NCBI RefSeq assembly: GCF_009834515.1
Contig: NZ_CP019426.1
Span: 434,001-498,000, forward strand
Length of the DNA stretch: 64,000 nt
Source: Pseudomonas sp. R84
GTDB taxonomy: Bacteria > Pseudomonadota > Gammaproteobacteria > Pseudomonadales > Pseudomonadaceae
Direction: 5' to 3'
Below are positions 11,946-26,865 of the stretch, in pieces (position 1 is the stretch's first letter; every line of letters begins with the position of its first letter). Both the position numbers and the translations under genes were made by a program. Under the pieces are notes generated by a model. That model was given only the letters and a program-made list of their open reading frames with translations, was not told where the DNA came from and did no database searches.

Positions 11946-13310
11946 TCAGCCTAGGAGGTCACGCAGGACCTGGGTGAAGGCGCTAGCACTGTCTTCTTCG
12001 CCAGCATGTCGACCATCACGCACTACCCACTGACCATTGACCAGCACATCGCGCACCTGACGATCGCCGCCGGCAAACAACCAGCGATTCAAAATCCCGT
12101 CACCGCTCGCCGTCGCCAGATACGGATCGTTGCCATCGAGCACAATCCAGTCCGCACGCTTGCCAACCTCCAGCGCACCAATCGGCTGCCCCAACGCTTG
12201 CGCACCGCCATCCAGCGCCGCGTCATATAGCGTGCGCCCGACCATTGGCTGATCCGCGCCATACAAGCGATTACGTCGCTGATCACGCAGGCGCTGACCG
12301 TATTCCAGCCAACGCAATTCCTCCACGACGCTGAGCGAGACATGGCTGTCGGAACCGATGCCCATGCGTCCGCTCTGGGCGAGGAAATCCACCGCCGGGA
12401 AAATCCCGTCGCCCAGGTTCGCTTCGGTGGTAAGGCACAGGCCGGCGATGGCGCGACTTTTGGCCATCAGCGTGACTTCTTCAGGGTTGGCGTGAGTGGC
12501 GTGGACCAGGCACCAGCGCTGATCGACTTCGGCATTTTCATACAGCCATTGCAGCGGACGCCGACCGCTCCAGCTCAGGCAGTCGTCGACTTCCTTCTGC
12601 TGTTCGGCGATGTGGATGTGCACCGGACATTGTTTGTCGCTGGCGGCCAATACTTCGCTGATCTGCTGTGGCGTCACCGCGCGCAAGGAGTGGAAGCACA
12701 GGCCCAGCGATTGCGCCTTTTGCTGCGCCAGCATTGGCTGCAAGCGCGATTGCAGATTCAGGTAATTTTCGGTGCTGTTGATGAAGCGGCGCTGGCCGTC
12801 ATTCGGCGTCTGCCCGCCAAAACCAGAGTGGCTGTAGAGCACCGGCAGCAGGGTCAGACCGATGCCGCTTTCACTCGCCGCCTGACTGATGCGCAACGCC
12901 AGCTCAGCGGGATCGGCATAAGGCTGACCATTGCTGTCGTGATGCACGTAATGAAATTCGGCCACCGATGTGTAACCGGCCTTGAGCATTTCGATGTACA
13001 GCTGCCGGGCAATCACGCCGAGCTGATCCGGGCTGATTTTTCCGACGAGCCGATACATCAGATCACGCCACGTCCAGAAACTGTCGTTCGGATTACCGGC
13101 CACTTCGGCCAGTCCCGCCATCGCGCGCTGGAAGGCGTGGGAGTGCAGATTGGGCATGCCCGGCAGCAATGGGCCGCTCAGCCGTTCGGCGCCATCTGCG
13201 GTGGAATCGGCCTGGATTTGGGTGAGCAGGCCATCGGCGCTGACTTCAAGACGTACATTGTTGGCCCATCCGTTAGGCAGCAGTGCGCGTTCGGCAAAGA
13301 AGGCGGACAT
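11946..13310 (-). CDS. hutF: Formimidoylglutamate deiminase
   Basis: Converts N-formimino-L-glutamate to N-formyl-L-glutamate and ammonia, the fourth step of the five-step histidine pathway. 454 residues of the amidohydrolase superfamily: the N-terminal metal site is PGMPNLHSHAFQRAMAG, a later His is in VHIHIAEQQKEVDDC, and the Asp-containing motif is IGSDSHVSLSVVEELRWLE. The C-terminal KRADWIVLDGNDP is usual for the fold. It is divergent from hutC; the shared region holds a probable HutC operator, so HutC probably represses hutF. Together with hutG it replaces the direct HutG-type formiminoglutamase route. Confidence 0.96.
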   Translation of the reverse strand: MSAFFAERALLPNGWANNVRLEVSADGLLTQIQADSTADGAERLSGPLLPGMPNLHSHAFQRAMAGLAEVAGNPNDSFWTWRDLMYRLVGKISPDQLGVIARQLYIEMLKAGYTSVAEFHYVHHDSNGQPYADPAELALRISQAASESGIGLTLLPVLYSHSGFGGQTPNDGQRRFINSTENYLNLQSRLQPMLAQQKAQSLGLCFHSLRAVTPQQISEVLAASDKQCPVHIHIAEQQKEVDDCLSWSGRRPLQWLYENAEVDQRWCLVHATHANPEEVTLMAKSRAIAGLCLTTEANLGDGIFPAVDFLAQSGRMGIGSDSHVSLSVVEELRWLEYGQRLRDQRRNRLYGADQPMVGRTLYDAALDGGAQALGQPIGALEVGKRADWIVLDGNDPYLATASGDGILNRWLFAGGDRQVRDVLVNGQWVVRDGRHAGEEDSASAFTQVLRDLLG

Positions 13311-13417: not shown

Positions 13418-14167
13418 GTGCCGACTCCGCCTCCAGTCTCCCCGTTGGCCGCGAACATGGGCGACAGTCCGGCGCCCTTGTACGCCCGCGTCAAACAGAT
13501 GATTACCCAGCAGATCGACAGCGGAAACTGGCCGCCGCACTACCGTGTGCCGTCCGAGAGCGAGCTGGTCAATCAACTCGGCTTCAGCCGCATGACCATC
13601 AACCGCGCGCTGCGCGAGATGACTGCCGATGGCCTGTTGGTGCGCATGCAAGGTGTCGGCACGTTCGTCGCCGAACCGAAGAGCCAGTCTGCGTTGTTCG
13701 AAGTGCACAACATCGCCGACGAAATCGCCTCCCGTGGCCATCGCCACACCTGCCAGGTCATTACCCTCGAAGAAGAGGCCGCCGGTTCCGAGCGCGCACT
13801 GGCGCTGGACATGCGTGAAGGGCAAAAGGTGTTTCACTCGCTGATCGTGCATTACGAAAACGACATTCCGGTGCAAATCGAAGACCGTTTCGTCAACGCG
13901 CTGGTCGCCCCGGAATACCTCAAGCAGGACTTCACCCTGCAAACGCCTTACGCGTATCTCAATCAGGTGGCGCCGCTGACTGAGGGCGAGCACGTGGTTG
14001 AAGCGATCCTCGCCGAGTCTTCCGAGTGCAAGTTGCTGCAGATTGAAAAAGGCGAGCCGTGCTTGTTGATTCGTCGCCGCACGTGGTCGGGGCGTCAGCC
14101 GGTGACGGCTGCACGTTTGATTCATCCGGGTTCTCGTCATCGTCTGGAAGGGCGCTTTCATAAATGA
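13418..14167 (+). CDS. hutC: Histidine utilization repressor HutC (GntR family)
   Basis: 249 residues. Residues of about 20-90 form a GntR winged helix (YARVKQMITQQIDSG..., VPSESELVNQLGFSRMTINR, GVGTFVAEP); residues of about 105-245 form the UTRA effector domain of the HutC/FadR-type subgroup. In Pseudomonas, HutC represses hut genes and is released by urocanate. The start is GTG at 13418 behind AGGG; the ATG at 13457 would remove part of the flexible N-terminus only. It overlaps hutD by four bases (ATGA), so repressor and HutD are made together. Confidence 0.96.
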   Translation: MPTPPPVSPLAANMGDSPAPLYARVKQMITQQIDSGNWPPHYRVPSESELVNQLGFSRMTINRALREMTADGLLVRMQGVGTFVAEPKSQSALFEVHNIADEIASRGHRHTCQVITLEEEAAGSERALALDMREGQKVFHSLIVHYENDIPVQIEDRFVNALVAPEYLKQDFTLQTPYAYLNQVAPLTEGEHVVEAILAESSECKLLQIEKGEPCLLIRRRTWSGRQPVTAARLIHPGSRHRLEGRFHK

Positions 14168-14733
14168 GTCAGGTGAAGGTTTTACGCGCTGAAGGCTACC
14201 CGCGCATGCCGTGGAAAAACGGCGGCGGCAGCACTGAAGAAATCACCCGTGATGCCGGTGCAGGGTTGGATGGTTTCGGCTGGCGCCTGTCGATTGCCGA
14301 CATCGCCGAGTCCGGCGGCTTCTCGACCTTCGCCGGTTACCAGCGAGTGATTACGGTATTGCAGGGTGACGGCATGACCCTATGCGTTGATGGCGACGAT
14401 ACGCGGCCGCTGTTACCGCTCGACCCGTTTGCCTTCAGCGGGGAAAGCCAGGTCTCGTGCACTTTACTTGGTGGCGCGATTCGCGACTTCAACCTTATCT
14501 ACGCGCCGCAGCGGTACAGCGCGCGGTTGCAGTGGCTTGAAGGTGAACAGCGGCTTTTCAGCTCGGCGGGGACGGTGCTGGTGTTCAGTGTCAGTGAGTT
14601 GCTGGAAGTGCAGGTTGGTGACGCCGTTTCGCAACTCGGTCGCCATGATTGCCTGCAACTGGACGGTAACAAGGGCTTGGTTGAAGTGTCCGTTGATGCG
14701 GGTTGCTGTGTCATTGAGCTGACTGCCCGCTGA
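14164..14733 (+). CDS. hutD: HutD family protein
   Basis: 189 residues of a cupin-like beta protein; the signature is PRMPWKNGGGSTEEI at the N-terminus, followed by FGWRLSIADI and SGGFSTFAGYQRVITVL. In P. fluorescens HutD has been described genetically as a governor that limits hut expression, with an unclear biochemical role. It overlaps hutC by four bases. A REP-type pair follows. Confidence 0.93.
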   Translation: MSQVKVLRAEGYPRMPWKNGGGSTEEITRDAGAGLDGFGWRLSIADIAESGGFSTFAGYQRVITVLQGDGMTLCVDGDDTRPLLPLDPFAFSGESQVSCTLLGGAIRDFNLIYAPQRYSARLQWLEGEQRLFSSAGTVLVFSVSELLEVQVGDAVSQLGRHDCLQLDGNKGLVEVSVDAGCCVIELTAR

Positions 14734-15181: not shown

Positions 15182-16864
15182 GTGACTGACAATAAGCCTA
15201 CTAAGGTTCGTAACGTCGAAATCCGTGCATCGCGCGGCAACAAGCTGACCGCCAAGAGCTGGCTGACCGAAGCGCCGCTGCGCATGCTGATGAACAACCT
15301 CGACCCGGAAGTCGCCGAGAACCCGAAAGAACTGGTGGTTTACGGTGGTATCGGTCGCGCCGCGCGTAACTGGGAGTGCTACGACAAAATCGTCGAAAGC
15401 CTGACCAACCTGAATGACGACGAGACCCTGCTGGTGCAATCCGGCAAGCCGGTCGGCGTGTTCAAGACCCACAGCAACGCCCCGCGCGTACTGATCGCCA
15501 ACTCCAACCTCGTTCCACACTGGGCGAGCTGGGAGCACTTCAACGAACTCGACGCCAAAGGCCTGGCCATGTACGGCCAGATGACCGCCGGCAGCTGGAT
15601 CTACATCGGCAGCCAGGGCATCGTCCAAGGCACCTACGAAACCTTCGTCGAAGCGGGTCGCCAGCACTACAACGACAACCTCACCGGCAAGTGGGTCCTG
15701 ACCGCCGGCCTCGGTGGCATGGGCGGCGCACAACCGCTGGCGGCAACCTTGGCCGGCGCCTGCTCGCTGAACATCGAATGCCAGCAAGTGAGCATCGATT
15801 TCCGCCTGAAAAGCCGTTACGTCGACGAGCAAGCCAAAGACCTCGACGACGCCCTGGCGCGCATCGACAAATACACCAAGGAAGGCAAGGCGATCTCCAT
15901 CGCACTGCTGGGTAACGCCGCAGAAATCCTCCCGGAACTGATCAAGCGTGGTGTGCGCCCGGACATGGTCACCGACCAGACCAGCGCCCACGACCCGCTC
16001 AACGGCTACCTGCCCGCCGGCTGGACCTGGGACGAATACCGCGCCCGCGCCAAGACCGAACCGGCTGCTGTGATCAAAGCCGCCAAGCAGTCGATGGCCG
16101 TGCACGTGAAAGCCATGCTGGAATTCCAGAAGCAAGGTATTCCGACCTTCGACTACGGCAACAACATCCGTCAGATGGCCCAGGAAGAAGGCGTCGAAAA
16201 CGCCTTCGATTTCCCGGGCTTCGTACCGGCCTACATCCGTCCGCTGTTCTGCCGTGGCATCGGCCCGTTCCGTTGGGCGGCGCTGTCGGGTGATCCGCAA
16301 GACATCTACAAAACCGACGCCAAGGTCAAAGAGCTGATCCCGGACGACGCGCATCTGCACAACTGGCTGGACATGGCCCGCGAGCGCATCAGCTTCCAGG
16401 GTCTGCCGGCACGTATCTGCTGGGTCGGCCTGGGCCTGCGCGCCAAGCTCGGCCTGGCGTTCAACGAAATGGTTCGTAGCGGCGAATTGTCCGCACCAAT
16501 CGTGATCGGTCGCGACCACCTCGACTCCGGCTCGGTGGCCAGCCCGAACCGTGAAACCGAATCGATGCAGGACGGTTCCGACGCCGTGTCCGACTGGCCA
16601 CTGCTCAACGCTCTGCTGAATACCGCGAGCGGCGCGACCTGGGTTTCCCTGCACCACGGCGGCGGCGTTGGCATGGGCTTCTCGCAGCACTCGGGCATGG
16701 TGATTGTTTGCGACGGTACGGACGAAGCGGCCGAGCGCATTGCGCGCGTGCTGCACAACGACCCGGCCACTGGCGTCATGCGTCATGCCGATGCCGGTTA
16801 CCAGATCGCCATCGACTGCGCCAAGGAGCAGGGCCTGAACCTGCCGATGATTACCGGAAAGTAA
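15182..16864 (+). CDS. hutU: Urocanate hydratase
   Basis: Converts urocanate to 4-imidazolone-5-propionate using NAD+ as an electrophile; second step of histidine breakdown. 560 residues, the family length. Typical segments are visible: [19 protein letters not shown] near the N-terminus, the glycine-rich NAD region [16 protein letters not shown], and near the C-terminus [16 protein letters not shown]. The start is GTG at 15182 behind GAGGAG. It is the first gene of the long hutU-to-hutG run and follows the sigma-54 promoter and operator described separately. Confidence 0.97.
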
Positions 16865-17017: not shown

Positions 17018-18490
17018 ATGGCTGTCAACACCGATCGTGCAGGCAACAAACCGTTGATCGAAAGGCGTTCGATCGACTACATCCCGGAAGCGGAAAGACA
17101 CGGTCGTCTGTTTAGCCAGTTCACCCTGTGGATGGGGGCCAACCTGCAAATCACCGCAATCGTCACCGGGGCCTTGGCCGTGGTGCTGGGCGGTGATGTG
17201 TTCTGGTCATTGATTGGTCTGTTGATCGGTCAATTGCTCGGCGGTGGCGTGATGGCGCTGCATGCCGCGCAAGGGCCGAAACTCGGTCTGCCGCAGATGA
17301 TCTCCAGCCGCGTGCAGTTTGGCGTCTATGGTGCGGCGATCCCTATCGTCTTGGTGTGCCTGATGTACCTGGGTTTTACCGCGACAGGCACGGTGCTTTC
17401 CGGTCAGGCGTTAGGCCAGCTATTCAATGTCAGCGACAGCGTCGGCATCCTGATTTTCGCTAGCGTTATCGTGCTGGTGACGGTGCTCGGTTATCGGGTG
17501 ATCCACTGGATTGGTCGTGTCGCCAGCGTCATTGGCGTGATCGCTTTCGTCTTCCTGTTCTGGCGTCTGATGAGCCAGACCGACGTCGGCGCACTCCTGC
17601 AAATCCGTCATTTCAGCTGGAGCAGTTTCCTCCTCGCAGTGTCGCTCGCGGCCTCCTGGCAGATCGCATTCGGTCCTTACGTGGCTGACTATTCCCGTTA
17701 CCTGCCGAGCAATACTTCGGCGGTAAAAACCTTCTTCGCCGCCGGTGCCGGTTCAGTGGTTGGCGCGCAAGTGGCGATGATCCTCGGCGTCTTTGCTGCG
17801 GCTTCGGCCAACGGCCAGTTCGCCGGTCATGAGGTGGCTTACATCGTCGGTCTGGGCGGCACCGGTGCCACCGCCGCGCTGCTGTACTTCAGCATTGCGT
17901 TCGGCAAGGTGACCATCTCGACGCTGAACTCCTACGGCAGCTTCATGTGCATCGCGACCATCATCAGTGGTTTCAAAGGCCATCTGACGGTGACCCGGAT
18001 GCAGCGTCTGGTGTTTGTGCTGGTGATCGTTGGCGCAGCGACCCTGATTGCGCTGCTTGGTCAGCACTCGTTCCTCGGTGCGTTCAAGTCTTTCATCCTG
18101 TTCCTGCTCGCGTTCTTCACACCGTGGAGTGCGATCAACCTGGTGGATTACTACTGCATCACCCGTGAGCGTTACGACGTGCCGGCACTGGCCGATCCGA
18201 ACGGACGCTACGGTCGCTGGAACCTGCTCGGTATCAGCGTCTATGTGTTCGGTGTGCTGGTGCAGCTGCCGTTCATCTCCACCAAGTTCTACACCGGCCC
18301 GCTGGTGGCTGCCCTCGGTGACGTGGATATTTCCTGGATCATCGGCCTGGTGCTGCCGGCCGTCGTCTACTACGTGTGCGCAAAAAAATGGCACAGCGCG
18401 GTGCCCGATCAACTGATTCTGCCGGTCGAGCAGAACAGCGTTGTACAACCTAAAACAAGCGGGGCCGGTCGCGCTGCGGCGCAGGCCTGA
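17018..18490 (+). CDS. NCS1-family (cytosine/purine type) permease of the hut cluster
   Basis: 490 residues with about twelve hydrophobic segments. The N-terminal IDYIPEAERHGRLFSQFTLWMGANLQ and the later FGPYVADYSRYLPSNTS are typical of the nucleobase-cation-symport-1 family. Placed directly after hutU, it most probably imports a pathway compound such as urocanate or histidine; pseudomonad hut clusters are known to carry dedicated transporters, but which substrate this one moves cannot be read from sequence. The gene has its own ATG after AGAGG. Confidence 0.9.
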   Translation: MAVNTDRAGNKPLIERRSIDYIPEAERHGRLFSQFTLWMGANLQITAIVTGALAVVLGGDVFWSLIGLLIGQLLGGGVMALHAAQGPKLGLPQMISSRVQFGVYGAAIPIVLVCLMYLGFTATGTVLSGQALGQLFNVSDSVGILIFASVIVLVTVLGYRVIHWIGRVASVIGVIAFVFLFWRLMSQTDVGALLQIRHFSWSSFLLAVSLAASWQIAFGPYVADYSRYLPSNTSAVKTFFAAGAGSVVGAQVAMILGVFAAASANGQFAGHEVAYIVGLGGTGATAALLYFSIAFGKVTISTLNSYGSFMCIATIISGFKGHLTVTRMQRLVFVLVIVGAATLIALLGQHSFLGAFKSFILFLLAFFTPWSAINLVDYYCITRERYDVPALADPNGRYGRWNLLGISVYVFGVLVQLPFISTKFYTGPLVAALGDVDISWIIGLVLPAVVYYVCAKKWHSAVPDQLILPVEQNSVVQPKTSGAGRAAAQA

Positions 18491-18560: not shown

Positions 18561-19529
18561 ATGAAATCGAACAAGACCCTGCTGACCACATTGCTGTCCA
18601 TGGGCCTGCTGGCCAGTGCCGGTGCGACCCAAGCTGCTGGCTGGTGCGAATCGGGCAAACCGGTGAAGTTCGCCGGGCTGAACTGGGAAAGCGGCATGCT
18701 GCTGACCGACGTGCTGCAAGTGGTGCTGGAGAAAGGTTACGACTGCAAGACCGACAGTCTGCCGGGCAACTCCATCACCATGGAAAACGCCCTGAGCAGC
18801 AACGATATTCAAGTGTTTGCCGAAGAGTGGGTCGGTCGCAGCGAGGTCTGGAACAAGGCCGAGAAGGCCGGCAAGGTTGTTGGTGTAGGCGCTCCGGTCG
18901 TCGGCGCGGTGGAAGGCTGGTACGTGCCGCGTTACGTGATCGAAGGCGACGCCAAGCGCAAGCTTGAGCCGAAAGCCCCGGACCTGAAAAACATCGCTGA
19001 CCTGGGCAAGTACGCCGCCGTGTTCAAGGACGCTGAAGAGCCTTCCAAGGGCCGTTTCTACAACTGCCCGGCCGGCTGGACCTGCGAACTCGACAACAGC
19101 GAAATGCTGAAAAGCTACGGTCTGGAAAACAGCTACACCAACTTCCGTCCGGGCACTGGCCCGGCGCTGGATGCGGCGGTGTTGTCGAGCTACAAGCGTG
19201 GCGAGCCGATCCTGTTCTACTACTGGTCGCCAACCCCGCTGATGGGCCAGGTGGATCTGGTCAAACTCGAAGAAAAACCGGGCGTCGACAAGTCTGTGAG
19301 CATCAAGGTCGGCCTGTCGAAAACCTTCCACGACGAAGCTCCGGAACTGGTCGCCGTGCTGGAAAAGGTCAACCTGCCGATCGACCTGCTGAACCAGAAC
19401 CTCGGTCGCATGGCCAAGGAACGTATCGAGTCGCCAAAACTGGCGAAAATCTTCCTCAAGGAACATCCTGAAGTCTGGCATGCGTGGGTCAGTGCAGACG
19501 CTGCCAGGAAAATCGACGCGGCGCTGTAG
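18561..19529 (+). CDS. hutX: ABC transporter substrate-binding protein (OpuAC/ProX type)
   Basis: 322 residues. A signal peptide at 1-25 (KSNKTLLTTLLSMGLLASAG, then ATQA) indicates a periplasmic protein. The mature part has the OpuAC-type layout (VKFAGLNWESGMLLTDVLQVVLEKGYDCK, and C-terminal MAKERIESPKLAKIFLKEHPEVWHAWV). The family binds quaternary amines or, in hut clusters, histidine or proline. The start is ATG 18561, preceded by TAGGAG; an open frame upstream overlaps the permease gene but has no signal peptide. It is followed by a hairpin before the permease gene, as is common when the binding protein is needed in excess. Confidence 0.92.
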   Translation: MKSNKTLLTTLLSMGLLASAGATQAAGWCESGKPVKFAGLNWESGMLLTDVLQVVLEKGYDCKTDSLPGNSITMENALSSNDIQVFAEEWVGRSEVWNKAEKAGKVVGVGAPVVGAVEGWYVPRYVIEGDAKRKLEPKAPDLKNIADLGKYAAVFKDAEEPSKGRFYNCPAGWTCELDNSEMLKSYGLENSYTNFRPGTGPALDAAVLSSYKRGEPILFYYWSPTPLMGQVDLVKLEEKPGVDKSVSIKVGLSKTFHDEAPELVAVLEKVNLPIDLLNQNLGRMAKERIESPKLAKIFLKEHPEVWHAWVSADAARKIDAAL

Positions 19530-19612: not shown

Positions 19613-20464
19613 ATGTTTCCCGAAAGCTTTACCTTTTCCATCGCCGACTGGGTCAACGGTTGGGTCGATTCGCTGGTCACCAACTACGGTGATGTATTCC
19701 GCCACATCTCCGACACCCTGCTCTGGGCCATCGTCAACCTCGAAGGCCTGCTGCGTGCGGCGCCATGGTGGTTGATGCTGGCCATCGTTGGTGTGGTTGC
19801 CTGGCACGCCACGCGCAAAGTCGTGACCACGGCGGTCATCGTCGGTCTGCTGTTCCTCGTCGGCGCCGTTGGCTTGTGGGACAAGCTTATGCAGACGCTG
19901 GCGCTGATGATGGTCGCGACGATCATTTCGGTGCTGATCGGCATCCCGCTGGGGATTCTCTCGGCGCGCAGCAATCGCCTGCGTTCGGTGCTGATGCCGC
20001 TGCTCGACATCATGCAGACCATGCCAAGTTTCGTGTACCTGATTCCGGTGCTGATGCTGTTCGGTCTGGGCAAGGTCCCGGCGATTTTCGCCACGGTGAT
20101 CTACGCCGCGCCGCCGCTGATTCGCCTGACTGATCTGGGCATTCGCCAGGTCGACGGCGAGGTGATGGAAGCGATCAATGCTTTCGGCGCCAACCGCTGG
20201 CAGCAACTGTTCGGCGTGCAACTGCCACTGGCCCTGCCGAGCATCATGGCCGGGATCAACCAGACCACCATGATGGCCCTGTCGATGGTAGTGATCGCCT
20301 CGATGATCGGCGCCCGTGGCCTGGGTGAAGATGTGCTGGTGGGGATTCAGACCCTCAACGTTGGACGTGGTCTCGAGGCCGGTCTGGCGATCGTGATTCT
20401 CGCAGTGGTCATCGACCGCATTACTCAGGCGTACGGTCGGCCACGGCATGAGGTGAGCAAATGA
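19613..20464 (+). CDS. hutW: ABC transporter permease (ProW type)
   Basis: 283 residues with six or more membrane helices. The EAA loop is seen as GEVMEAINAFGANRWQQLFGVQLPLALPSI, the pattern for glycine betaine/proline-type importers. It pairs with the binding protein HutX and the ATPase HutV; it overlaps hutV by four bases (ATGA). Inner membrane. Confidence 0.93.
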   Translation: MFPESFTFSIADWVNGWVDSLVTNYGDVFRHISDTLLWAIVNLEGLLRAAPWWLMLAIVGVVAWHATRKVVTTAVIVGLLFLVGAVGLWDKLMQTLALMMVATIISVLIGIPLGILSARSNRLRSVLMPLLDIMQTMPSFVYLIPVLMLFGLGKVPAIFATVIYAAPPLIRLTDLGIRQVDGEVMEAINAFGANRWQQLFGVQLPLALPSIMAGINQTTMMALSMVVIASMIGARGLGEDVLVGIQTLNVGRGLEAGLAIVILAVVIDRITQAYGRPRHEVSK

Positions 20465-21291
20465 GCAACGCAACCGTGAGCAAGATCGAAGTCAAAAACG
20501 TCTTCAAGATTTTCGGCAACCGCGCCAAGGATGCGCTGGCCATGGTCGGCCAGGGCAAGACCAAGGATCAGGTGCTGAGCGAGACCGGTTGCGTGGTCGG
20601 CGTGAACGATCTGTCGCTGAGCATCGGCACCGGCGAGATCTTCGTGATCATGGGCCTGTCGGGCTCGGGCAAGTCGACGCTGGTACGCCACTTCAATCGC
20701 CTGATCGATCCAACCAGCGGCGCGATCCTCGTCGACGGCGTCGACATCCTGCAATACGACATGGACGCCCTGCGCGAATTTCGCCGGCACAAGATCAGCA
20801 TGGTGTTCCAGAGCTTCGGCCTGTTGCCGCACAAGACTGTGCTCGACAACGTCGCCTACGGCCTGAAGGTGCGTGGCGAGAGCAAGCAAATGTGCACGGA
20901 ACGCGCGCTGCACTGGATTAACACCGTTGGCCTCAAAGGCTACGAAAACAAATACCCGCACCAGCTCTCCGGCGGCATGCGTCAGCGCGTCGGTCTGGCT
21001 CGGGCCTTGGCGGCGGATACCGACATCATCCTCATGGATGAGGCGTTCAGTGCGCTGGATCCGCTGATTCGTGCGGAGATGCAGGATCAGTTGCTGGAGC
21101 TGCAAAAGACGTTGCACAAGACCATCGTCTTCATTACCCACGACCTTGATGAGGCGGTGCGTATTGGTAACCGCATTGCGATTCTCAAGGATGGGAAGTT
21201 GATTCAGGTTGGTACGCCACGCGAGATTCTGCATTCGCCAGCGGATGAGTATGTCGACCGGTTTGTGCAGCGGCGGGCGGCGGTGGTTTAG
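20461..21291 (+). CDS. hutV: ABC transporter ATP-binding protein (ProV/OpuAA type)
   Basis: 276 residues. Walker A GLSGSGKSTLVRHFNR, Q-loop VFQSFGLLPHKTVLDN, signature LSGGMRQRVGLARALA, Walker B IILMDEAFSALDP, and the His switch FITHDLDEA are all present. The N-terminal insertion around ALAMVGQGKTKDQVLSETG is characteristic of the glycine betaine/proline subfamily; the C-terminal CBS domains found in ProV are absent, as the protein ends soon after the nucleotide-binding domain. It energises HutW for uptake of HutX ligand. Confidence 0.93.
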   Translation: MSNATVSKIEVKNVFKIFGNRAKDALAMVGQGKTKDQVLSETGCVVGVNDLSLSIGTGEIFVIMGLSGSGKSTLVRHFNRLIDPTSGAILVDGVDILQYDMDALREFRRHKISMVFQSFGLLPHKTVLDNVAYGLKVRGESKQMCTERALHWINTVGLKGYENKYPHQLSGGMRQRVGLARALAADTDIILMDEAFSALDPLIRAEMQDQLLELQKTLHKTIVFITHDLDEAVRIGNRIAILKDGKLIQVGTPREILHSPADEYVDRFVQRRAAVV

Positions 21292-21320
21292 GTAGATTTG
21301 TGTTGGCTGGGCTGGCCTCT

Positions 21321-21384
21321 TCGCGAGCAGGCTCGCTCCCACAGGGGACTGCATTCCAATGTGGGAGCGAGCCTGCTCGCGAAA
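21321..21384. repeat. REP-type inverted pair, GTGGGAGCGAGCCTGCTCGCGAA family
   Basis: Inverted copies TTCGCGAGCAGGCTCGCTCC... and ...GGGAGCGAGCCTGCTCGCGA separated by a short spacer, between hutV and the first histidase-family gene. Same family at 26870, 34410, 36221, 54658 and 59689. Confidence 0.88.
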
Positions 21385-21424
21385 GCGTCGGTAAAGCTGC
21401 ATCAATGTTCGGATGAGGTTAATG

Positions 21425-22948
21425 ATGTCCCAGGCTGAAAAAATCATTATCACCGGCGCCCCTCTGCGTTGGCAGGACGTGGTCGCCGTCGCCCGTCACG
21501 GCGCTCAACTCGAGCTGTCCAGCGACACCTGGGCGCGCATCGAAAACGCCCAAGCCATCGTCCAGCGCATCGTCGAAAGCGGCGAGCGCGCCTATGGCGT
21601 AAACACCGGCCTGGGCGGTTTGTCCAACGTTTCCCTGAAAGACGAACAACTCAGCCAGCTCTCGCGCAACACCCTGCTCAGCCATGCCTGCGGTGTCGGC
21701 CCGGTGCTTGCCGACGAGCAGACCCGCGCGATCATCTGCGCGGCGATCCACAACTACAGCCACGGCAAATCCGGCATCCACCGCCGCGTGGTTGAAGGCC
21801 TGCTGGCACTGCTCAATCGCGGCGTCACCCCGCAGGTTCCGTCGCAAGGCTCGGTCGGTTACCTGACCCACATGGCGCACATCGGCATCGCGTTGCTCGG
21901 CGTCGGTAATGTCCGCTATCGCGGGCAGATCACCTCGGCGCAACAGGTGCTGGCCGAAGAAGGCCTGCAACCAGTGCAACTCGGTGCGAAGGACGGTTTG
22001 TGCCTGGTCAACGGTACGCCGTGCATGACCGGCCTCAGCTGTCTGGCGATTGCCGACGCCACGCGGCTGGTGCAGTGGGCCGACGTTATCGGCGCGATGA
22101 GTTTCGAAGCCCAGCGCGGTCAGATCGATGCGTTCGATGCCGAGATCATCGCGCTGAAACCACATCCGGGCATGCAGCAAGTCGGCACAAATCTGCGCGC
22201 CTTGCTCGATGGCAGTGAAGTGATTGCGTCGAGCAAAGGCATCCGCACTCAGGATGCGCTGAGCATCCGCTCGATCCCGCAAGTGCACGGCGCCGCGCGT
22301 GATCAACTCGACCATGCGATCAAGCAGGTCGAAGCGGAACTCAACGGCTGCACCGACAACCCGCTGTTGCTCGGCACACCGGACAATTTCCGGGTGATGT
22401 CACAGGCCAACCCCCACGGCCAATCGGTGGCGATGGCGGCGGATTTGCTGGCAATTGCCATGGCCGAAATCGGTTCGATTGCCGAGCGTCGCCTCGATCG
22501 TCTGGTCAACCCGCACGTCAGCGGTCTGCCGGCGTTTCTGGTGGCCAATCCGGGGGTGAACTCGGGGATGATGATCGTTCAGTACGTCGCCGCATCGCTG
22601 TGTGCGGAAAACCGCCAATTGGCGCAACCGGCGGTGCTCGACAATTACATCACCTCGGGCCTGCAGGAGGACCATTTGAGCATGGGCACCAATGCCGCGC
22701 TGAAGCTGCATCGCGCGTTGGAAAACTGCACGCAGATCCTCGCCATCGAATACCTGCTGGCGGCGCAGGCGTTTGAATTTCTCAAGGAACAGCGCTTTGG
22801 CGCTGGCACCGATGTCGCTTGGCGACTGCTGCGCGAAAAAGTCCCGGCCTACGATCAGGATCGCTGGCTGGCGCCGGACATCGCTGCCGCTGCGAGCGTG
22901 TTGAAAAACCCGAATCTGCCGCACAACGTTTTACCGAATTTGCACTGA
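21425..22948 (+). CDS. hutH1: Histidine/aromatic ammonia-lyase family paralogue lacking the MIO-forming Ala-Ser-Gly
   Basis: 507 residues from ATG 21425 (GAGG at 21415-21418); ATGs at 21413 and 21422 are alternatives. The fold is clearly that of histidase: [35 protein letters not shown] and LQEDHLSMG are kept. However, the cofactor segment reads [12 protein letters not shown] where the neighbour HutH has [15 protein letters not shown]: exactly the three residues that cyclise to MIO are missing and the next Asp is Tyr146. QDPYSLR is changed to QDALSIR (the catalytic Tyr becomes Leu279), and GNFHAEP to ANPHGQS (Phe becomes Pro330). The frame is intact, so this is not decay by frameshift. Ordinary lyase activity is unlikely; a structural, regulatory or ligand-binding role is possible. 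Confidence 0.9.
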
Positions 22949-23064: not shown

Positions 23065-24597
23065 ATGACTGCGCTGAACCTGATTCCCGGCCAACTGAGC
23101 CTGGCCCAACTGCGTGACGTCTACCAGAACCCGGTCAAGCTGACTCTCGACAACAGCGCCTCGGCACAGATCGAAGCCAGCGTCGCTTGCGTCGAGCAGA
23201 TCCTCGCCGAGAATCGCACCGCTTACGGCATCAACACCGGTTTCGGCCTGCTGGCCTCGACGCGCATTGCCAGCGAAGACCTGGAAAATCTGCAGCGCTC
23301 GCTGGTGTTGTCCCACGCCGCCGGTGTTGGCGTGCCGATCAGCGACGAGCTGGTGCGGCTGATCATGGTGCTCAAGGTCAACAGCCTCAGCCGTGGTTTC
23401 TCCGGCATTCGCCGTGTGGTGATTGATGCGCTGATCGCGCTGATCAATGCCGAGGTTTACCCGCACATTCCGCTGAAAGGTTCGGTGGGCGCGTCGGGCG
23501 ACCTGGCGCCGTTGGCGCATATGTCGCTGGTGCTGCTGGGCGAGGGCAAGGCGCGCTACAAGGGTGAGTGGATGGAAGCTGTCGAGGCGCTGAAAGTGGC
23601 CGGCCTGACGCCGCTGACACTGGCGGCGAAAGAAGGTCTCGCGCTGCTCAACGGCACTCAGGTGTCCACCGCGTTCGCGCTGCGTGGTCTGTTTGAAGGT
23701 GAAGACTTGTTTGCCGGTGCGTTGGCGCTGGGCGGTCTGACGGTTGAAGCGGTATTGGGTTCGCGTTCGCCGTTCGATGCACGTATTCACGCCGCGCGTG
23801 GCCAGAAAGGTCAGATCGACGCCGCTGCGGCTTACCGCGATCTGCTCGGTGAGCGCAGCGAAGTCTCCGACTCGCACCAGAACTGCGAGAAGGTTCAGGA
23901 CCCGTACTCGCTGCGCTGCCAGCCGCAAGTCATGGGCGCTTGCCTGACCCAGTTCCGTCAGGCCGCTGAGGTCTTGGCTGTCGAAGCCAATGCCGTTTCC
24001 GATAACCCGCTGGTCTTCGCTGCTGAAGGCGATGTGATTTCCGGCGGTAACTTCCACGCCGAACCGGTGGCCATGGCTGCTGACAACATGGCCCTGGCCA
24101 TCGCTGAAATCGGCTCGCTGAGCGAACGCCGAATCTCTCTGATGATGGACAAGCACATGTCGCAGCTGCCGCCGTTCCTGGTGGCCAATGGCGGGGTGAA
24201 CTCCGGTTTCATGATTGCTCAAGTGACGGCAGCGGCATTGGCTAGCGAGAACAAGGCGTTGTCGCATCCGCATTCGGTGGACAGCCTGCCGACTTCAGCC
24301 AACCAGGAAGACCACGTTTCCATGGCGCCTGCGGCTGGCAAGCGTTTGTGGGAAATGGCCGAAAACACGCGCGGGATTCTTGCGGTGGAGTGGCTGGCGG
24401 CGGTGCAAGGGCTGGATCTGCGTAACGGCCTGAAGACCTCGGCGAAGCTGGAGCAGGCGCGGGCTATTCTGCGTAAGGAAGTGCCGTTTTATGAGAAGGA
24501 TCGGTTCTTTGCGCCGGACATTAACGCGGCGACTGAGCTGTTGGCTTCGCGGTGTTTGACTGGGTTGGTTTCGGCGAAGCTTTTGCCTAGTTTGTAA
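23065..24597 (+). CDS. hutH: Histidine ammonia-lyase (functional copy)
   Basis: Converts L-histidine to trans-urocanate and ammonia, first step of the pathway. 510 residues, the length of the well-studied P. putida enzyme. The MIO triad Ala143-Ser144-Gly145 is in [14 protein letters not shown]; other catalytic positions are [24 protein letters not shown] (Gln278, Tyr281, Arg284), GGNFHAEP (Phe330) and [10 protein letters not shown]. The start is ATG 23065 after AAAAGGAG; the open frame running upstream from 22819 is an accident in another gene. It presumably supplies all histidase activity, since the preceding paralogue lacks the cofactor triad. Confidence 0.97.
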
Positions 24598-24845: not shown

Positions 24846-26051
24846 GTGAAAACCCTCTGGCAACACTGCCACGTGGCAACCATGGCGCAGGGCGTCTACT
24901 CGATCATCGAGGATGCGGCTATCGTAACGTCCGGTGCGCTCATTGAGTGGATCGGCCCGCGTAATCAACTGCCATCTGGCGAATACCCGGCGGTCAATGA
25001 TCTGCAAGGCGCGTGGGTCACGCCCGGCCTGATCGACTGCCACACCCACACCGTGTTCGGTGGCAATCGCAGCGGCGAATTCGAAAAACGTCTGCAAGGC
25101 GTTAGCTATGCCGAAATCGCAGCCTCCGGCGGCGGCATCGCCAGCACCGTGCGTGCGACTCGCGAAGCTACCGAAGACGAGCTGTTCGCCAGCGCCGCGA
25201 AACGCCTGAAAAGCCTGATGCGCGACGGCGTGACCACGGTCGAAATGAAATCCGGCTACGGCCTCGATCTGGGCAACGAACGCAAAATCCTCCGCGTCAT
25301 CCGTCGCCTGGAAAAAGAGCTGCCGATCAGCGTGCGCAGTACCTGTCTGGCTGCCCACGCGTTGCCGCCCGAATACAAGGATCGCGCCGACGACTACATC
25401 GATCTGGTCTGCGACGTGATGCTGCCGGCATTGGCAGCGGAAGATCTGATCGATGCCGTGGATGCCTTCTGCGAATACCTGGCGTTCTCGCCAGAACAGG
25501 TCGAGCGTGTCTTCATCGCCGCGCAAAACCTCGGTCTGCCGGTGAAACTGCATGCCGAACAACTGTCGTCGCTGCATGGCTCCAGCCTCGCCGCGCGCTA
25601 TAAGGCGCTGTCCGCCGATCACCTGGAATTCATGGACGAAGCCGACGCCATCGCCATGGCCGAAGCAGACACCGTCGCGGTGCTGCTGCCGGGCGCGTTC
25701 TACTTTCTGCGCGAAACCCAGTTGCCGCCTATGGACGCCCTGCGCAAGCACAAGGTGAAGATCGCCATCGCCAGCGACCTCAACCCCGGCACTTCGCCGG
25801 CGCTGTCGTTGCGGCTGATGCTGAACATGGCCTGCACCTGTTTCCGCATGACCCCGGAAGAAGCCTTGGCCGGCGCGACCATTCACGCCGCGCAGGCACT
25901 GGGCATGGCCGACACCCACGGATCGCTGGAAGTCGGCAAGGTCGCGGATTTCGTTGCCTGGCACATCGATCGTCCGGCGGATCTGGCCTATTGGCTCGGC
26001 GGTGATCTGGACAAACGCGTCGTGCGTCACGGCGTCGAATCAAATCTGTAG
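24846..26051 (+). CDS. hutI: Imidazolonepropionase
   Basis: Hydrolyses 4-imidazolone-5-propionate to N-formiminoglutamate, third step. 401 residues of the amidohydrolase family: metal motif [16 protein letters not shown], then [18 protein letters not shown], the mid-protein KLHAEQLS and the Asp motif [10 protein letters not shown]. The start is GTG 24846, with GGAGG at 24835-24839 six bases upstream. A longer frame reaching to 24600 translates the repeat element and is not real coding sequence. It is followed closely by hutG. Confidence 0.96.
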
Positions 26052-26061
26052 GAGAGCGGTT

Positions 26062-26865
26062 GTGGATAAGGTTCTGAACTTCAAACAAGGCCGCGTGCCG
26101 TTGTTGGTCAGCATGCCGCATGCCGGGGTGCGGTTGACCCCAGCGGTGGAAGCCGGGTTGATCGCGGACGCGAAAAGCCTGCCGGACACCGACTGGCACA
26201 TTCCGCAGTTGTACGACTTCGCCGAAGAACTGGGCGCGAGCACTCTGGCTGCCGAGTACTCGCGGTTCGTCATCGACCTGAATCGTCCGTCCGACGACAA
26301 ACCGCTGTACGCCGGCGCCACCACCGGACTGTATCCGGCGACGCTGTTCGATGGCATTCCGTTGTTCCGCGAAGGGCACGAGCCGTCGCAAGAAGAGCGC
26401 GCGACTTATCTGGAGCAGATCTGGACGCCGTACCACCGCACGCTGCAAGAAGAGCTGGCACGACTGAAAGCCGAGTTCGGTTACGCGCTGCTGTTCGATG
26501 CGCACTCGATCCGTTCGATCATCCCGCATCTGTTCGACGGCAAACTGCCGGACTTCAACCTCGGCACCTTCAACGGCGCCAGTTGTGATCCGCAACTGGC
26601 CAGTCAGTTCGAAGCAATCTGCGCCGGCCACAGCCACTACAGCCACGTGCTCAACGGCCGCTTCAAGGGCGGCCACATCACCCGCCAATACGGCAACCCG
26701 GCCGAGAACATCCACGCGGTGCAACTGGAGTTGTGCCAGAGCACCTACATGGAAGAGTTCGAACCGTTCCGCTATCGCGCCGATCTGGCCGAGCCGACGC
26801 GGGTGGTGCTCAAAGAGTTGCTGCAGGGCTATCTGGCGTGGGCAAAGTCTCACTACACCGCATAA
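26062..26865 (+). CDS. hutG: N-formylglutamate deformylase
   Basis: Last step: N-formylglutamate to glutamate and formate. 267 residues with the FGase signature: VPLLVSMPHAGVRL, DTDWHIPQLYDFAEELG, RFVIDLNRPSDDKPLY, LLFDAHSIRS and GGHITRQYG. The start is GTG 26062 after GGAGAG; an open frame upstream overlaps hutI and is not used. Partner of hutF in the five-step pathway; end of the hut cluster, followed by a REP-type pair. Confidence 0.96.
   Translation: MDKVLNFKQGRVPLLVSMPHAGVRLTPAVEAGLIADAKSLPDTDWHIPQLYDFAEELGASTLAAEYSRFVIDLNRPSDDKPLYAGATTGLYPATLFDGIPLFREGHEPSQEERATYLEQIWTPYHRTLQEELARLKAEFGYALLFDAHSIRSIIPHLFDGKLPDFNLGTFNGASCDPQLASQFEAICAGHSHYSHVLNGRFKGGHITRQYGNPAENIHAVQLELCQSTYMEEFEPFRYRADLAEPTRVVLKELLQGYLAWAKSHYTA

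Follow-up and report, generated by a model that had tools for sequence, protein, structure and literature searches.

A histidase-family protein lacking the MIO triplet is conserved beside importers in Pseudomonas hut operons and may be a lyase for a histidine betaine

The closest described enzymes to the gene product analyzed here are two of the aromatic amino acid lyase fold. In Pseudomonas putida histidine ammonia-lyase (HAL), a change at Ser143 lowers activity more than a thousandfold, and the same report also describes a mutant PAL made without MIO (PMC3903478). Ergothionase converts ergothioneine to trimethylamine and thiourocanate and has no MIO (PMC13405746). A search for descriptions of enzymes lacking MIO led to both of these reports, and otherwise to work on D-amino acid synthesis and to unrelated studies. 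A search by phrase of the open-licence literature found no paper on hercynine lyase or on hercynine degradation, catabolism, or utilisation. Hercynine (histidine betaine) is ergothioneine without the sulphur, and its elimination product is urocanate. In strain SBW25, Zhang and Rainey are said to have reported in 2007 that one hutH copy is non-functional and that HutXWV has a minor role in histidine uptake. We take PA5093 to be the hutH1-like gene of PAO1. That identity disagrees with the label in PMC12772324 (P. aeruginosa), where PA5093 is named hutG and "hutH1" is absent from the text. Urocanate is given as the effector of Pseudomonas HutC in passages of PMC12977541 (P. aeruginosa) that make no mention of a second hutH, and two hutH genes appear in an expression table of PMC8069873.

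The window, the whole 64,000-nucleotide stretch of DNA analyzed, covers positions 434001-498000 of the single contig that makes up the 6.6-Mb genome of Pseudomonas sp. R84. It contains a hut locus in the order hutF (minus strand), hutC, hutD, hutU, a cytosine-permease-family gene, hutX, hutW, hutV, hutH1, hutH2, hutI, and hutG. Genes other than those for the importer, the permease, and the lyases were named from sequence resemblance and from similarity to annotated relatives, and the labels HutU, HutI, HutG, HutC, HutD, and HutF are putative. The position of hutH1 between the ABC importer and the true histidase, given in the first-pass annotation, was confirmed. The features, in window coordinates, are as follows.

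11946..13310, minus strand, HutF (putative)
13418..14167, plus strand, HutC repressor (putative)
14164..14733, plus strand, HutD (putative)
15182..16864, plus strand, HutU, urocanase (putative)
17018..18490, plus strand, cytosine-permease-family transporter (PF02133)
18561..19529, plus strand, HutX, OpuAC-type substrate-binding protein of a betaine-family ABC importer (PF04069, 206.3 bits)
19613..20464, plus strand, HutW, permease (closest NCBIfam models choline permease and ProW, below their cut-offs)
20461..21291, plus strand, HutV, ATPase of the betaine/proline/choline family (TIGR01186, 370.5 bits; cut-off 326.6)
21425..22948, plus strand, HutH1, triplet-less (MIO-less) histidase-family protein of 507 aa (PF00221, 556.7 bits)
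21848..21865, plus strand, MIO site of HutH1, GSVG-Y-L in place of GSVG-ASGD-L (sequence and alignment)
22250..22270, plus strand, QDALSIR of HutH1, residues 276-282, with Leu279 at the HAL Tyr280 position and Gln276 and Arg282 kept
22406..22426, plus strand, ANPHGQS of HutH1, residues 328-334, with Pro330 at the HAL Phe329 position
23065..24597, plus strand, HutH2, canonical histidase with ASG, Tyr, and Phe intact (sequence comparison)
24846..26051, plus strand, HutI (putative)
26062..26865, plus strand, HutG (putative)

A REP-like inverted repeat of 32 nt lies between hutV and hutH1 (21320-21383); its arms are 91% complementary with no spacer, and it might act in processing or attenuation inside the operon. 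The genome contains three PF00221 genes, hutH1, hutH2, and a third paralog 32 kb past the window (G000:C1:530051-531448), which has an intact ASG, is 29-32% identical to both hut copies, and presumably originates from an aryl-polyene cluster. Matches 32-37% identical to hutH1 recur in other Pseudomonadaceae.

The frame around hutH1 is open over 21413-22948, and the start at 21425 yields a 507-aa protein, in agreement with the length of most homologs listed for HutH1. From 21848, the codons GGC TCG GTC GGT TAC CTG encode G142-S143-V144-G145 followed by Y146-L147, and the 11-residue HutH1 site aligns with a 14-residue counterpart in HutH2, to which HutH1 is 38% identical overall. Where HutH2 has 16 residues of counterpart sequence and GNFHAEP, HutH1 has GSVGYL, QDALSIR, and ANPHGQS. 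Four residues (ASGD) are thus replaced by a single Tyr. The first-pass annotation had described a loss of exactly ASG; the net loss of three residues stands, and which triplet went missing is a matter of alignment, since a loss of ASG with Asp changed to Tyr fits as well as a loss of SGD with Ala changed to Tyr. The two accompanying substitutions that it had noted, Tyr to Leu279 and Phe to Pro330, were borne out by alignment to HutH2. In P. putida HAL numbering, which is used for HAL residues throughout, HutH1 contains neither the Ala-Ser-Gly MIO triplet nor Tyr280 nor Phe329, and it contains His83, Arg283, and Glu414 of the imidazole and carboxylate sites. We assume the residue roles in HAL, with Tyr280 as the catalytic Tyr and Tyr53 as the presumed proton-abstracting residue.

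Window HutH1 passes the NCBIfam histidase model TIGR01225 with 546.5 bits (cut-off 539.15). Two of the four triplet-less proteins scanned with this model pass, the window protein and that of a Priestia plasmid (591.8 bits), while those of a Klebsiella plasmid (501.7) and of genome G488 (533.1) fall below. The equivalog model therefore accepts some MIO-less proteins, and annotation names these histidine ammonia-lyase. No solved structure named as a member of the triplet-less clade was present among the 39 PDB sequences matched, the best of which was 7tqr, a probable histidase.

The triplet deletion is conserved. The HutH1 site is common to the best 120 of 7457 homologs. Of 99 genomes from the genus, 72 (counting that of the window) carry the exact DNA motif for its 11 residues, each of them once, and two further genomes have GYLSHMAH or GYLAHMAH in its place. 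A sequencing error and a strain-specific deletion were both ruled out by the recurrence of the site in these homologs and genomes. In a class-wide survey, the exact DNA motif was found in 2 of 369 genomes, one of them the window's own, which indicates that the motif covers the HutH1 subfamily only. Every plasmid homolog read from Erwinia, Burkholderia, and Rhizobium/Sinorhizobium (50-70% identity) shows this net loss of three residues, and more distant triplet-less relatives are found on plasmids of Priestia (46%) and Klebsiella (43%). The Klebsiella-type lyase was present at ≥95% identity in 163 of 72,556 plasmid records (108 + 55).

The pattern of retained and lost residues was determined from an alignment of 369 relatives, comprising 350 of the 360 hits obtained with three triplet-less queries (480-560 aa; 10 excluded by length) and 19 reference sequences. 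In this set, 296 proteins were three residues short, 69 had the MIO triplet, and 4 were one residue short, among them ergothionase (6s7j). His83, Gln277, Arg283, and Glu414 were invariant in all 296 triplet-less proteins, and Tyr53 was retained in 295. The Tyr280 position was Leu in 295 and Ile in 1, and the Phe329 position was never Phe (Pro 126, Gly 112, Cys 33, Ala 23, Ser 2), while Asn195 was kept in 182 and replaced by Ser in 100, Gly in 13, and Val in 1. Tyr280 and Phe329 were both retained in 69/69 MIO-bearing relatives. When columns separating the classes were selected at a cut-off of 85% in each class (95 non-redundant triplet-less versus 33 non-redundant MIO-bearing proteins), only the MIO loop, with a new and invariant Tyr146, and Tyr280 passed. 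Together, these residue counts indicate that the histidine-shaped site is conserved and that the ammonia-activating apparatus is gone.

hutH1 is under purifying selection. Median dN/dS in Pseudomonas was 0.072 for hutH1 (81 sequences) versus 0.042 for hutH2 (79 sequences), a paired median ratio of 1.7, and the frame at hutH1 was open over at least 507 codons in 80/80 of the closest Pseudomonas loci, with integrity judged by length in frames that had been cut stop to stop. A dN/dS of 0.07 indicates that the gene is not decaying, and the earlier view that selection rather than decay maintains it holds. A decayed pseudogene was ruled out on the same two grounds.

Triplet-less genes are linked to importer genes. 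An importer (betaine-type ABC, BCCT, HisJQMP, or MFS) was nearby in 106 of the 108 triplet-less neighborhoods read, and in the two exceptions (L057 and L063) the locus begins at a contig end, within 150 bases of hutH1. In the closest Pseudomonas relatives and the window, a betaine-type importer lay within 4.5 kb in 79 of 81 cases. Considering only the reference genes that were looked for, the order importer ATPase, hutH1, canonical hutH held in 76 of the 80 Pseudomonas loci, all of them closest relatives, and the other 4 end on one side before the neighbor. A further 27 triplet-less loci were chosen among search hits and not at random. Each had an importer on its own strand no more than 4.5 kb away, which was of the OpuAC type in 11, HisJQMP in 12, BCCT in 3 (PF02028, 385.7 to 390.9 bits), and MFS in 1. 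None of the 12 Pseudomonas loci read that contain canonical hutH without hutH1 (12 of 17 such genomes) had an importer of these types. Canonical HutH was itself near the same importer in 77/79 loci of the closest set and the window and in 8/15 other mixed loci because both lyases share the operon.

A HutX ortholog (≥78% identity) was detected in 26 of 27 genomes with hutH1 versus 1 of 25 without it (Fisher p = 2e-12, a value that ignores species kinship and linked loss); the former were 27 of the 71 hutH1-positive genomes other than the window's own. Two of 27 motif-negative genomes, G409 and G431, contained a divergent hutH1 with BCCT and no HutX. A canonical-type match (41-43%) was found in 19 of the 27, none of which had HutX, and GSVGASGDL was present in all 14 of these that were read at the locus. 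In G391, hutH1 is accompanied by the permease and ATPase genes, the binding protein is absent from the locus, and no HutX match was found at 78%. Conversely, G411 (L163) has kept HutC and HutXWV, and no match to HutH1 or HutH was found in its genome at E 1e-30. HutX of the window has Trp at the positions aligned to Trp140 and Trp188 of ProX, which we take to be two of three cage residues, and it scores under the cut-offs of the ProX and choline models.

Plasmids provide a second setting for the gene. On the Klebsiella pneumoniae plasmid (L105, L111), the triplet-less lyase lies among hutF, hutC, hutD, an OpuAC importer, hutU, hutI, and hutG; on the Priestia plasmid the genes ahead of it are hutU, hutI, one of the agmatinase family, and two encoding MFS proteins. 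In both plasmid records it is the sole match to HutH1, and no canonical hutH was found in the plasmid stretches scanned. The simplest reading of these gene sets is that the lyase would supply urocanate from something other than histidine. A second, divergent triplet-less gene of G488 (L179:8282-16609; GSVGYLGPEGH) neighbors HisJQMP genes and genes for a VanA-type Rieske oxygenase, a reductase, and a formaldehyde dehydrogenase of the glutathione-dependent type (TIGR02818, 710.9 bits). Such a combination would suit the removal of methyl groups and looks like another methylated-substrate pathway. A solA-like N-methyl-amino-acid oxidase gene is directly downstream of the triplet-less gene in three of the five annotated rhizobial loci read. 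Both neighborhoods fit a methylated substrate without proving one.

On the basis of the residue conservation, the purifying selection, the importer linkage, the plasmid clusters, the Trp residues of HutX, and the parallel with ergothionase, we propose that HutH1 is probably an MIO-independent lyase that converts hercynine to urocanate and trimethylamine. As one of a widely distributed group of aromatic amino acid lyase-fold proteins that lack MIO, it would act on a histidine bearing an amine that can depart readily as it stands, for which N-alpha-trimethylhistidine is the likeliest candidate. The betaine would be imported by HutXWV, or elsewhere by BCCT or HisJQMP-type carriers. In the predicted active site, His87 and Glu415 would hold the imidazole, Arg282 and Asn196 would hold the carboxylate, and the beta-proton would be abstracted by Tyr57. 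The space freed by the loss of the triplet, Tyr280, and Phe329 would receive the departing trimethylamine. Trimethylammonium leaves readily and cannot be deprotonated, so that MIO activation is not needed. The urocanate formed would enter the HutU-HutI-HutF-HutG pathway and would induce the operon via HutC.

Several observations weigh against hercynine as the substrate. HisJQMP, the importer at 12 of the 27 further loci, is not betaine-specific, and importers of the HutXWV type carry histidine. A canonical histidase with intact ASG was also present in all 10 triplet-less genomes checked (PF00221), no trimethylamine-use gene was recognised among the operon genes of the window, and hutH1 evolves under a higher dN/dS than HutH. 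The importer persists in G411, where no hutH-like match was found, and the lyase persists in G391, where HutX is missing. Finally, canonical HutH is often near the same importer, and linked loss of one block could explain the co-occurrence in Pseudomonas without shared function.

The best of the alternatives is an MIO-independent lyase acting on another N-alpha-substituted histidine: ergothioneine, ergothioneine sulfonate, histidine with one or two methyl groups, or, in some subfamilies, a related betaine. The variation between subfamilies at Asn195 and Phe329 and the rhizobial solA-like oxidase are consistent with such substrates, as is the binding protein of the Klebsiella plasmid, which matches choline-, betaine-, and ergothioneine-binding proteins in the PDB (EgtUC, E 1e-22). 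However, the companions of the lyase in the window and on the plasmids are of the ordinary HutU/HutI type, which suits urocanate better than thiourocanate, and the Lys of the ergothionase QK motif is Tyr in HutH1. We consider this alternative unlikely.

The first-pass annotation had favored a non-lyase role, which we judge to be less likely than a lyase: the residues of the substrate site persist, no columns other than the MIO loop and Tyr280 pass the 85% cut-off for separating the classes, and ergothionase is a working MIO-free lyase. One form of this role, a ligand-binding pseudoenzyme serving as a histidine or urocanate sensor or as a moonlighting protein, would account for the retention of ligand-binding residues alongside the loss of the triplet and Tyr280, and it agrees with the more than thousandfold loss of activity in P. 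putida HAL without its MIO serine (PMC3903478). Against it stand the near-complete retention of Tyr53, the plasmid clusters that hold the lyase without canonical hutH, the recurrence of importer linkage with unrelated importer families, and the example of ergothionase, in which MIO loss has not ended lyase activity (PMC13405746). A pseudoenzyme therefore seems rather improbable.

A further possibility, that HutH1 is an inactive partner subunit that forms a heteromer with HutH and tunes the histidase, is suggested by the adjacency of the two genes in the window, by the conserved placement of hutH1 between importer ATPase and HutH in Pseudomonas, and by the presence of both genes in all 10 genomes checked. 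In G391 and G471, however, the distance from hutH1 to canonical HutH on the same contig is 0.39 Mb and about 0.98 Mb, respectively, and the Klebsiella and Priestia plasmid records show no second match to HutH1. That the lyase travels with importers and is found in plasmid clusters without canonical hutH makes an obligate HutH partner hard to reconcile with the data, and we regard a partner subunit as quite improbable. Least credible is a decaying or dispensable duplicate, for although normal histidase function is impossible without MIO and dN/dS exceeds that of HutH, the low dN/dS, the open frames, and the conservation of residues across relatives that span several classes and the Bacillota make this very improbable.

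For a wider proposition we see an even balance of confidence and doubt. The triplet-less clade may constitute a family, so far unrecognised and spread over several phyla, of MIO-free trimethylamine-lyases for amino-acid betaines, with hercynine lyase as its leading member. Many Pseudomonas hut operons may then encode a dual pathway for histidine and histidine betaine with HutXWV as betaine importer, and the plasmid copy may provide a trimethylamine-releasing route in Klebsiella that is now annotated as histidase or aromatic amino acid ammonia-lyase. Such a family would give a joint function to the Pseudomonas hutH copy that is reportedly non-functional and to its betaine-family importer, and it would add a trimethylamine-producing reaction in soil, plant-associated, and plasmid-bearing bacteria. 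It would also show that TIGR01225 names some MIO-less proteins histidase (two of the four scanned). More generally, it could be tested on one fold whether a lyase may, perhaps on more than one occasion, dispense with its electrophilic cofactor when a good leaving group is already part of the substrate.

Among known systems, ergothionase (T. denticola; PDB 6s7j and 6s7q) shares with HutH1 the fold, the PF00221 superfamily, and the absence of MIO, and Tyr280 is replaced by Leu in both. Its loop is one residue short (SSIGEGD), whereas that of HutH1 is three residues short, and ergothionase has kept Phe329. Ergothionase and two rhizobial relatives have the Lys of the QK motif, which presumably has a functional role in ergothionase, while HutH1 has QY. 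Two one-residue-short genes of the ergothionase class, on Rhizobium plasmids (L106 and L107), are like hutH1 located by or near betaine-type ABC importer genes: one adjoins an OpuAC binding-protein gene and hutC, and the other shares its stretch with genes for glycine-betaine ABC components and for LLM flavin oxidoreductases. Three trees were built to compare one loss of MIO with two. In a first tree (72 rows), the triplet-less and ergothionase classes were apart; in a second, with trait columns removed, the one-residue-short rows fell on the triplet-less side and the triplet-less rows were not one clade; and in a third (52 rows, with more MIO rows and trait columns removed), the two classes were again apart. 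A single MIO-less group was not rejected by the AU test (p 0.53).

The importers ProXWV, ChoXWV, and HutXWV, all of the OpuAC type, correspond to the binding-protein and ATPase families encoded directly upstream of hutH1; the window's substrate-binding protein is below the ProX and choline model cut-offs. With HutH (EC 4.3.1.3; P. putida 1b8f family), HutH1 shares the fold, His83, Asn195, Gln277, Arg283, Glu414, and the operon, and it differs from HutH in having lost the MIO triplet, Tyr280, and Phe329.
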